A DNA stretch of 64,000 nucleotides from an uncultured Bacillota bacterium (GTDB lineage Bacteria > Bacillota > Clostridia > Christensenellales > Pumilibacteraceae): assembly GCA_949294845.1 (NCBI GenBank), contig CASFJH010000036.1:1-64000 (forward strand), in the 5' to 3' direction. Position 1 is the stretch's first letter. Each line of letters opens with the position of its first letter. The notes below the pieces were generated by a model, which saw nothing but the letters and a program-made list of their open reading frames with translations, was not told the origin of the DNA and did not search any database. Shown one piece after another: positions 36,097-39,262 of this stretch. A program made the translations under genes and the position numbers.

Positions 36097-36555
36097 TTAA
36101 CTAAAATGAACGCTCGGACGCGCCAGAGCGATACGGTTTGTCTCAAACGACACGTCTGTGCCGTCTATCTCGAGCACCACGACGTTTTCCGTCCTGCTTT
36201 TAAGAATACCTTCGTAATACTTCTTGCCTTTTATCGGAGCGTAAAGCTTGATTTCCACTTCCCGCCCGTAATTGCGCTCGAAATCGCGCTGCGTTTTGAA
36301 CGGTCTGTCCAGCCCCGGCGACGACACGTTGAGAATGTAAGGTCCGTCGACCGGATCGAGCTCGTCGATAATGGGATTTATCGTGTTATGCACCAGCTCG
36401 CAGTCGTTAAGCGTTACTCCGCGCGGAATGTCGATATATATCGTCAGATTCATTCCGTCCGGCTTTTTGACGTATTCCACGGCGACTATCTCGAACCCGC
36501 ATTTCTCCACCGGCTCCCTTATTGCGTCGTAAGTTTCCTGCTCTACCTTGTTCAA
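36097..36555 (-). CDS. rimP: ribosome maturation factor RimP
   Basis: A 152-residue protein needed for 30S maturation. It has the RimP pattern FEIVAVEYVKKPDGMNLTIYID, followed by GVTLNDCELVHNTI and YILNVSSPGLDRPF. The frame is open further upstream, but the leader hairpins and promoter lie there. TTG at 36555, seven bases after GAGAGGG, gives the usual family length. It is the first gene of the rimP-nusA-infB operon. Confidence 0.92.
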   Translation of the reverse strand: MNKVEQETYDAIREPVEKCGFEIVAVEYVKKPDGMNLTIYIDIPRGVTLNDCELVHNTINPIIDELDPVDGPYILNVSSPGLDRPFKTQRDFERNYGREVEIKLYAPIKGKKYYEGILKSRTENVVVLEIDGTDVSFETNRIALARPSVHFS

Positions 36556-36562
36556 AGCCAAA

Positions 36563-36609
36563 CCCTCTCTAACAGCAGTTGAGAGCGGGTCGTTGCAACC
36601 CACTCTCAA
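36563..36609 (-). promoter_or_regulatory. rimP leader with two competing hairpins
   Basis: On the minus-strand RNA, TTGAGAG and CTCTCAA (36579-36609, with an inner GGGT/ACCC stem) form one hairpin. The same CTCTCAAC can instead pair with GTTAGAGAG (36565-36585), which contains most of the GAGAGGG ribosome binding site of rimP. The two structures exclude each other. No U tract follows, so control of translation rather than of termination is suggested. This is inference from base pairing. Confidence 0.6.
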
Positions 36610-36632
36610 GCACCATAGTATTCAGTATTGAT

Positions 36633-36661
36633 ATTATACCATGAAATAAAGCAAAAATCAA
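36633..36661 (-). promoter_or_regulatory. promoter of the rimP-nusA-infB operon
   Basis: Minus-strand -35 TTGATT (36656-36661), 17-base spacer ending TGG, -10 TATAAT (36633-36638). The start is near 36626, giving a leader of about 70 bases that contains the two competing hairpins. Confidence 0.87.
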
Positions 36662-36665
36662 GCGT

Positions 36666-38234
36666 TTAGCTGATAAAATTCGCCAATTTGAGAAAAACCT
36701 CGGCAGTCGCTATCGCGTCGTAAATGGCGCGGTGCGCACCCTTGTTCTTTATCCCGAAATATTCGGTCAGTTTTCCCAGGTTGAACTTCGTAAGCGACGT
36801 GAGATATTTGCGTCCCAGCGCCAGAGTGTCTATACGCTCGTTATCGAAATATATGTTCATCTCCTGACCCGCGGCCGACACAAAGCCGTAGTCGAACTGA
36901 ACGTTCTGCCCGACCATTATCGTTCCGTATGAAAATTTGTAGAAATCGGGCAGCGCTTCGTCGATAGTGGGAGCGTCCTTAACGTCGTCGTCCGTTATCG
37001 TGGTAAGCGCCGTTATCCGTTCGGGAACGGGAACCTCGGGATTGACGAAAGTCGAAAACGTCTGGGAAATCAGACCGTTTTCCACACGCACCGCCCCTAT
37101 CTCTATAATTTTGTCCGACGCCGTATTGAGTCCGGTAGTTTCGATGTCGAAAACGCAGAACGTTTTGCCCAGCACGAAATCGGCAATTCTGTCTTCCTTT
37201 TTGAAAAGCGAGCCCTGTTCCGCCACAACATAAGGCTGAGGAAAAACATAACGGTATTCGTCCTCCACCTTGCGTATAATGCGGTTGACGGTGAAATCCT
37301 TGGGAAATACGCAAAGCGAGATGCGCTTTACCGAATACGTCATCTGCCCGGGGCGGAACTTATCGATGTCAAGATCGCCGCAGCAAACTATTTCGCGCCC
37401 GTTTTTAATGAGCGTCATGCGCTCTTCCGTCTTACGGCTGGGAAAATATATGCAGCTGAGCTCTCCCGTCGGATCCTTAAGTATAAATTTAAAGTAGCTC
37501 TTCGGCTTGCCTTCGGCGACGTTTTTGCGTTCTATCTGCTGAAACTGCTCCACCTTGCCGCACACCACCAGTCTCTGCTCGGGGCGCTTGCAGTCGCATA
37601 TGTATCTGGCGAGATCGTAAATTATTGCGCCCACGAATTCCTCGACCATCTGCGGCCGTATGAGCCGCTGCTCGTCGGCGCGGTCGAACGTCGTGCCGTT
37701 CTCTTCGCTCTCAAGCCTTCTCTCGTACTGCTCTATACTGTCCTCGGTCCTGGTATCCTTTTTGGCTGCGGTCTGCACGCGGATATCTTCGCAGTAATTG
37801 AGCTCGATGAAATTCTCTATCGCGCGGATAACCTTTTTGTCCTCGCAATACCCGATAAGCGCCTCTTCTATATTCAGCGTTACCGTTATCCGATCTCCTT
37901 CGCGCCTTACGATTACGTCGTTCTCGCCCAATCCGCTCGAGAGCACCGGATATGCGAAAAGAAACTTGAAAAGTCTGACTTTGAAGAACTCCGCGTCGAA
38001 ATGGCTTTTTATAAACTTCACGTCAAGCGCGCACGGCACCGCCGCCACGGAACGGATCAGCCCGACGAGCTTTTCCTCGTTCTCCATTACTTCCGCTTCT
38101 TTGTCCTCGGGGTATATAAAGGCGAGCGTTATCCTGTTTTTGCTCAGCTCCGCCTCCCCGAACGACAGCCGCAGATATGAAAACCGCCCGTCCGTAAGCT
38201 TGTTAAGTTGTTCCGAAAGTTCGCAGGTCTTCAC
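36666..38234 (-). CDS. PolC-like exonuclease lacking the PHP and polymerase domains
   Basis: A 522-residue protein at the conserved polC position between ispG and rimP, but about one third of PolC length. Residues 1-210 resemble the PolC N-terminal region, about 218-312 an OB fold (YFKFILKDPTGELSCIYFPS), and 355-520 a DEDDh exonuclease with D363/E365 in VFDIETTGLN, D448 in QNVQFDYGF, and H501/D506 in AHRAIYDAIATAE, the PolC form of motif III. The exonuclease looks active. The PHP HxH motif and the entire polymerase are missing, and the gene ends cleanly just before the rimP promoter. It might proofread for another polymerase or act alone in repair. It overlaps ispG by four bases. Confidence 0.8.
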   Translation of the reverse strand: MKTCELSEQLNKLTDGRFSYLRLSFGEAELSKNRITLAFIYPEDKEAEVMENEEKLVGLIRSVAAVPCALDVKFIKSHFDAEFFKVRLFKFLFAYPVLSSGLGENDVIVRREGDRITVTLNIEEALIGYCEDKKVIRAIENFIELNYCEDIRVQTAAKKDTRTEDSIEQYERRLESEENGTTFDRADEQRLIRPQMVEEFVGAIIYDLARYICDCKRPEQRLVVCGKVEQFQQIERKNVAEGKPKSYFKFILKDPTGELSCIYFPSRKTEERMTLIKNGREIVCCGDLDIDKFRPGQMTYSVKRISLCVFPKDFTVNRIIRKVEDEYRYVFPQPYVVAEQGSLFKKEDRIADFVLGKTFCVFDIETTGLNTASDKIIEIGAVRVENGLISQTFSTFVNPEVPVPERITALTTITDDDVKDAPTIDEALPDFYKFSYGTIMVGQNVQFDYGFVSAAGQEMNIYFDNERIDTLALGRKYLTSLTKFNLGKLTEYFGIKNKGAHRAIYDAIATAEVFLKLANFIS

Positions 38235-39262
38235 TTGTGCGCCTCTATCAGTTTTTTCAATTCGTTCTTCACTTCGCCGAACGCCACCGTTTTCACCGGT
38301 TTTCCCTTGACGAATATCACTGCTTTATCCTTGCCGCCGGCTACTCCGAAATCGGCGTCGCGCGCCTCTCCCGGTCCGTTCACCACGCACCCCATTACGG
38401 CTATCTTGAGCGGCTTTGAAACGTTAACGGTGAGCTCGCGCACCTCGTCGACTACCGACATGAGATCGTATTTGCACCGCGAGCACGTCGGACAGGATAC
38501 AATCTCGCAATGTTTCTCCAGCCCCAGAGCGCGCAGAATCTCGCGGCCGGCCAGCACTTCGGCAACCGGATCGCCCGACAGCGACACCCGTATCGTATCG
38601 CCTATGCCGTCAGCCAGCAGCGCGCCTATGCCTATTGCGGATTTGACCAGCCCGCTCTCGTAAGCGCCTGCCTCGGTAACCCCCAGATGCAGCGGATAAT
38701 CGCATAAGGCGGCCAACCTGCGGTATGCGTCTATCGTCGTCTTTACCGACGACGCCTTTGCCGAAACCACTATATCGTAAAAGCCGAATTCCTCCAGCAG
38801 CCGAACGTGCCTCAACGCGCTCTCGCACAGAGCCTGAGCGGTAGCGCCGTATTTGTCCAGCAGATCTTTCTCGAGCGAACCGGCGTTAACGCCTATACGG
38901 ATCGGCGTGCCGTTGGCTTTGCACGCTGCCACCAGTTCGGCTATACGTCCGCGGTCGCCTATGTTGCCGGGGTTAAAACGGACCTTTGACGCGCCCAAGT
39001 CGCTCGCCATGACAGCGAGGCGGTAATCGAACTGAATATCGGCTACAAGAGGAACTTTGACGGCTTTGACCAGTCTGCCGAAGGTTTCGGCTTCAACAGC
39101 GTCGGACACCGCGACGCGAACGATGTCGCAGCCGGCGTTTTCCAGCCGTCCGATCTGCGCGAGAGTCGCTTCGTAATCGGCCGTATCCGTATTCGTCATC
39201 GACTGTACCGTGACTCGGCCGCCGCCTATTACCGTATTTCCTGCTTTTACCGTTCTTTTCAT
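38231..39262 (-). CDS. ispG: 4-hydroxy-3-methylbut-2-enyl diphosphate synthase
   Basis: A 343-residue enzyme of the MEP pathway, an N-terminal TIM barrel and a C-terminal 4Fe-4S domain. The cluster ligands are the cysteines of SCPTCSRC and MGCVVNGPGEA, with the Glu of GPGEA as the fourth ligand. VTVQSMTNTDTADYEAT is the N-terminal signature. It lies between rseP and the PolC-like gene. Confidence 0.96.
   Translation of the reverse strand: MKRTVKAGNTVIGGGRVTVQSMTNTDTADYEATLAQIGRLENAGCDIVRVAVSDAVEAETFGRLVKAVKVPLVADIQFDYRLAVMASDLGASKVRFNPGNIGDRGRIAELVAACKANGTPIRIGVNAGSLEKDLLDKYGATAQALCESALRHVRLLEEFGFYDIVVSAKASSVKTTIDAYRRLAALCDYPLHLGVTEAGAYESGLVKSAIGIGALLADGIGDTIRVSLSGDPVAEVLAGREILRALGLEKHCEIVSCPTCSRCKYDLMSVVDEVRELTVNVSKPLKIAVMGCVVNGPGEARDADFGVAGGKDKAVIFVKGKPVKTVAFGEVKNELKKLIEAHK

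Follow-up and report, generated by a model that had tools for sequence, protein, structure and literature searches.

A protein with PolC N-terminal domains and a DEDDh exonuclease, but without polymerase, at the polC locus of a clostridial order

What has become of PolC in a bacterium in which the slot between ispG and rimP, where polC normally lies, holds a gene for a protein of 522 residues? We approached this question in a window of 64,000 nucleotides, the whole stretch of DNA analyzed, which comes from an uncultured member of the Bacillota (contig CASFJH010000036.1). An earlier note, made from the sequence of the window, had proposed that the polymerase part was cleanly lost and the proofreading module kept. 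The open reading frame is as described there, running on the minus strand at 36666..38234 from a GTG start to a clean stop codon (36668..36666), and its neighbors are indeed ispG upstream (38231..39262, minus strand) and rimP downstream (36097..36609, minus strand), with nusA next and both rimP and nusA intact. The GTG start and the stop of ispG share four nucleotides (GTGA). The note had also placed the stop just before a rimP promoter, and here only the stop can be upheld, as a promoter-like site (TTGATT-17-TATAAT) does lie between the gene and rimP, but a scan showed such sites to be no more common than chance. Just downstream of this site, within positions 36540-36640 of the window (minus strand), there is a perfect 14-bp RNA hairpin (GAGAGUGGGUUG..CAACGACCCGCUCUC region) with a folding z of -2.8; no Rfam family was matched between the 522-residue gene and rimP. 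The TTG start listed for rimP falls near or inside this hairpin, so the true start is probably located further downstream.

At its N terminus the protein has two KH-like domains, followed by an OB fold and a DEDDh exonuclease that is complete; PHP and polymerase are missing. The predicted N-terminal subdomain I, of KH-like type II (residues 1-79, 37998..38234, minus strand), and subdomain II, a predicted second KH-like repeat (residues 80-160, 37755..37997, minus strand), were identified by AF2 modeling, structural matches to KH domains, and hhalign, in the first case against the N-terminal domain (NTD) of PolC. The model of residues 1-165 reached a pLDDT of 87.6 and shows two consecutive helix-strand-strand-helix-helix-strand repeats of the KH type, its best structural matches including KH domains of ribosomal proteins and NusA; the fold search of these domains returned generic KH domains and no tau domain V structure, a result that excludes nothing. 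The OB fold (residues 222-310, 37305..37571, minus strand) gave a weak Pfam match, below the cut-off, at residues 224-302, together with Foldseek matches to the PolC structures 9qpc and 3f2b and an hhalign match to PolC. A linker of 46 residues (311-356, 37167..37304, minus strand) replaces the N-terminal half of the PolC PHP domain and leads to the DEDDh 3'-5' exonuclease domain (residues 357-519, 36678..37166, minus strand), which is nearest to the exonucleases of PolC and matches Pfam RNase_T at residues 361-514 (E 9e-40). The catalytic residues D363, E365, D448, H501, and D506 are all found where the earlier note had put them. The top NCBIfam match is PolC, whose cut-off of 873 bits lies far above the 169.7 bits obtained, since nothing is matched beyond the exonuclease and a portion of the N terminus. 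Searches of the 522-residue protein with Pfam and NCBIfam profiles, and with hhalign for PHP, detected no PHP domain, palm/thumb/fingers polymerase core, or HhH region. The full-length AF2 model, built from a seven-row alignment, was poor over the exonuclease (pLDDT of about 25-56), so the assignment of this domain rests on sequence. Profile searches and predicted folds therefore bear out the domain content that had been claimed, an N-domain, OB fold, and exonuclease kept with no PHP or polymerase.

The evidence also supports the view that the gene is a remnant of polC in which NTD, OB fold, and exonuclease survived the loss of the polymerase. In the sister families, a full-length PolC of about 1,310-1,470 aa is encoded between ispG and rimP, or behind ispG in cases where no rimP was detected. 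Residues 10-312 align with the NTD and OB fold of these sister PolCs over 280 columns (hhalign probability 99.3%, E 1.8e-20), so a counterpart in PolC exists for the region that the note had singled out (residues 1-312), and what is predicted for it, two KH-like folds, is what has been published for the PolC NTD (PMC3919608). PolC 9qpc is also the best Foldseek match of the full-length model. As for the exonuclease, among the matches listed from the class (243 genomes) its best relatives are those of PolC, with identities of up to 52%. PolC came out polyphyletic in an initial exonuclease tree that had long branches and included few PolCs; once PolC was well sampled, the short forms, as we call this protein and its orthologues, clustered on the PolC side, apart from most DnaQ and DinG rows, with weak deep support. 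An AU test on a joint clade of PolC and short forms gave a p of 0.24, by which such a clade is neither rejected nor demonstrated, and taken by itself the exonuclease tree does not place the short forms firmly within PolC. These two results, the weak separation of PolC from other DnaQ-like domains in the tree and the neutral AU test, are what could be held in favor of an unrelated DnaQ- or DinG-type exonuclease convergently fused to KH and OB domains. The shared polC slot, the NTD-OB profile match, the identical domain order, the closeness to PolC exonucleases, and a distribution in which short form and PolC exclude each other all contradict such an origin, which we consider very improbable and largely refuted. 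Even less credit is due to a polC split or truncated by assembly or binning. The genome of the window does consist of 91 contigs and is 90% complete, but the contig is 82 kb long with rimP-nusA intact downstream, and dozens of independent assemblies have this form at this locus, among them those of the cultured Pumilibacter muris and P. intestinalis (NCBI Clostridia); an intact gene conserved in this way rules out an assembly error, a split polC, or a chance ORF. Synteny, N-terminal profile homology, KH-like folds, exclusive distribution, and the split between hosts thus agree with the clean loss of the polymerase.

In one clostridial order, 15 family-level groups have orthologues of ~500-545 aa in this slot, about 50 of them in all. 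Within the family of the window, 35 of 37 genomes (from a set of 61 relatives) have the short form, the two without a match being 67% and 77% complete. In a sample of 121 genomes of the order, nearly all of them at least 90% complete, the scores against the PolC model are bimodal, with 47 genomes at about 840 bits or more (counting G096, whose PolC is split over two contigs) and 74 at 170 bits or less. The low scorers are 73 genomes belonging to 15 families plus a single genome, G074, from a family that otherwise bears PolC. Short forms are retained even in genomes of 0.8-1.2 Mb with 98-100% completeness, and none was found outside the order among the matches listed from the class sample of 243 genomes. 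In a host tree made from ispG, nusA, dxr, and rseP (1,366 columns), a single branch with 100/100 support divides the hosts of PolC from those of the short form, which is consistent with a single event of PolC loss. G074 (family f11, 96% complete) has no PolC above background, despite the full-length PolC of its family, and may represent a second, independent PolC loss in which the short form is absent.

This spread across the clade goes beyond the earlier note, as do a clamp-type motif in the linker and the existence of lineages with a dead exonuclease. PolC has its clamp motif at its very C-terminal end, where Q-x-x-[LIMF]-[FLY] was recognized in 11 of 12 sister PolCs (the twelfth is missing this end); in the short form the site is gone because the protein ends right after the exonuclease. 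The linker of the short form carries a putative beta-clamp-binding motif of the QxxPhi[FLY] kind, Q340-G-S-L-F344 in the window (37203..37217, minus strand). Q-x-x-[LIMF]-[FLY] is present in the linkers of 47 of 54 orthologues, and the stricter Q-x-[SDNT]-[LIM]-F in 36, against an expectation of 0.017 per linker, calculated from the frequency in the rest of these proteins. Most of the linker is variable, but Q340 ranks with its four best-conserved positions. Ahead of PHP in full-length PolC the motif was found in 0 of 12 proteins, in one of which the start of PHP was not located by pattern. Judging from sequence conservation, the linker motif is probably a new hook for the sliding clamp, a function that is predicted for it.

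If the polymerase of PolC has disappeared, which polymerase would the exonuclease work with? No PolC-type polymerase was matched in any short-form genome of the 61-genome set, and nearly always there is one DnaE per genome (none was detected in G031, and G015 has an extra partial match). The earlier note had considered a free subunit for DnaE or for a second PolC; the genome of the window, as assembled, holds no second PolC and has one DnaE. This DnaE passes the PRK06826 cut-off, as do the DnaEs of the PolC-bearing sister families, so we can take it as the DnaE1-type companion polymerase described for Clostridia. All 13 DnaEs examined retain the full set of nine PHP ligands (HHDHEHCDH), and they also contain a clamp-type motif. 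With an intact PHP site DnaE1 may proofread itself, and this is the main argument against the short form being the sole proofreader. No other strong DnaQ-type exonuclease was found in the genome of the window. Its only other RNase_T match is a 432-aa protein (L035:446-1741, minus strand, contig C50) with a degenerate RNase_T-type domain in which the first catalytic motif is altered, and with a C-terminal half that has no domain assignment. Compared with L076, the DnaEs L034 and L075 from short-form genomes have additional stretches inserted in their PHP region (for example around RFTDEKAEVFDFLKEGREFKVKP), which are missing in L079. In a genome of 0.9 Mb (G064), DnaX (L122) is a protein of only 410 aa without the C-terminal tau region, while the short form keeps its KH-like domains; in the other genomes looked at, DnaX has 501-558 aa and this region is present.

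The reading we prefer, with a probability of about 0.6, is that the short form is a PolC-derived, clamp-tethered exonuclease that proofreads DnaE1 in trans. In this clade PolC would have been given up as a polymerase, and with the polymerase core went HhH and the two halves of PHP. The QxxLF-type motif of the linker would tie what remained to the sliding clamp, the KH-like domains may touch the clamp loader or DnaE1, the OB fold would hold the displaced single strand, and the exonuclease would trim mispaired 3' ends made by DnaE1, so that the protein would behave as a trans-acting proofreader, epsilon-like in action but descended from PolC. In Bacillus subtilis, the PolC exonuclease is reported to proofread errors of DnaE in trans, and a polymerase-deficient PolC to stimulate synthesis by DnaE (PMC5627055). 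An ancestor with such trans-proofreading that lost the PolC polymerase would leave a selected remainder like the one seen here.

A PolC-derived, clamp-tethered protein could also serve mainly in DNA repair or end processing (gap filling, mismatch excision, or the trimming of Okazaki or blocked-fork ends), with DnaE1 proofreading itself through its PHP domain. The intact PHP site of every DnaE examined fits this possibility, and clamp motifs are common in repair enzymes. The same can be said of the observation that most DnaE1-only bacteria have one candidate proofreader, either PHP or DnaQ (PMC12926913). However, a repair role does not agree well with the retention of the PolC N-terminal domains, which have been proposed to contact the clamp loader (PMC3919608), with a single copy at the ancestral polC locus even in the 0.8-1.2 Mb genomes, or with the trans-proofreading reported for PolC, and we regard it as unlikely. 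Somewhat more doubtful is a mainly non-catalytic adaptor of the replisome, in which KH-like domains would contact the clamp loader or DnaE, the OB fold single-stranded DNA, and QxxLF the clamp, the exonuclease being secondary and sometimes discarded. What speaks for an adaptor is that six orthologues lack the full catalytic set, belonging to three separate lineages on the host tree (L064/L065/L068; L070 with L101; L069), and that their NTD-OB part remains at the locus, from which it follows that nuclease activity is not always needed. The first of these, the g8 lineage, keeps QSSLY or QSYLY in the linker, and a separate DnaQ-like exonuclease is present in 5 of 5 genomes with a dead short form versus 6 of 42 with an active one in the 61-genome set (Fisher p of 3e-4, uncorrected for relatedness). 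On the other hand, DEDDh is intact in 48 of 54 orthologues, spanning 30-60% identity, which means that most lineages maintain the nuclease by selection; the linker motif has also been lost in L101, and remnants resembling QMNF or QLSF are left in L070 and L069. Nor is the separate DnaQ universal, as further dead lineages (G165, G079, and G082) have no strong separate exonuclease. A strict rule by which a dead exonuclease is accompanied by a separate DnaQ, true in the 61-genome set, was dropped on account of these three, and the association should be seen as a trend.

Several known systems come close to the short form. With full-length PolC, the short form shares the ispG-rimP locus and, in the same order, the two KH-like domains, the OB fold, and the DEDDh exonuclease; it differs in stopping three residues past the exonuclease, without either PHP half, palm/thumb/fingers, or HhH, and in having its clamp-type motif between OB fold and exonuclease, whereas that of PolC is C-terminal. 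Like the DnaQ/epsilon subunit of Escherichia coli Pol III, it is a separate DEDDh exonuclease beside DnaE1 with a predicted clamp motif outside the exonuclease core. Unlike epsilon, it derives from PolC, its motif and the additional KH-like and OB domains precede the exonuclease, and with the exonuclease ending at residue 519 of 522 there is no counterpart to the polymerase-binding tail that follows it in epsilon. Standalone exonucleases of the DinG and DnaQ-like types share the DEDDh fold and motifs, but they lack NTD and OB fold and fall apart from the short forms in the exonuclease tree, which places the latter, with weak support, on the PolC side and does not give the DinG or DnaQ grouping that the note had named as contrary to its reading; the Superfamily 2 helicase that follows the exonuclease in DinG is absent from the 522-residue protein by sequence and Pfam. 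PolA2/APEX also has a QxxLF clamp-binding motif predicted in a flexible segment associated with its exonuclease, but is an A-family polymerase with an inactive exonuclease (PMC12926913).

The available text of two surveys distinguishes three replicase arrangements (DnaE1 only, PolC with DnaE1, and PolC with DnaE3), assigns PolC with DnaE1 to the Clostridia, and reports PolCs without exonuclease, with no mention there of PolCs without polymerase (PMC3919608, PMC12926913); a keyword search of the open-access literature for truncated, lost, or polymerase-less PolC returned nothing comparable. A deep clade of Clostridia without PolC polymerase runs contrary to this uniform description. As PHP, polymerase core, and HhH are absent, the short form does not qualify as a PolC polymerase; it descends from PolC and probably works like a proofreading subunit. 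We lean, by a small margin, toward a fourth arrangement in which a single DnaE1 would be accompanied by a detached, clamp-tethered proofreader made of the front third of PolC, which in some descendants would have become a dead replisome adaptor. That the clade abandoned the PolC polymerase and kept the proofreading half suggests that an ancestor with PolC and DnaE1 drew more benefit from the exonuclease than from the polymerase. The short form would be the natural counterpart of the polymerase-dead PolC used in B. subtilis to demonstrate trans-proofreading of DnaE, and with such a natural version the question of who proofreads DnaE where PolC is lacking becomes testable. Two predictions can be made: PolC inhibitors such as ibezapolstat should find no target in these gut bacteria, and short forms will be misassigned in gene surveys that call polC by exonuclease or OB similarity. 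The exonuclease-less PolCs of Clostridia and Negativicutes (PMC3919608) are also PolCs minus one module in bacteria with PolC and DnaE1, with the opposite loss, the exonuclease missing and the polymerase kept. Among the full-length PolCs in our data, one of 1,456 aa (L047, genome G048) has a weak RNase_T match (53 bits) and no ETTG motif by simple pattern, and is possibly a PolC whose exonuclease is decaying.
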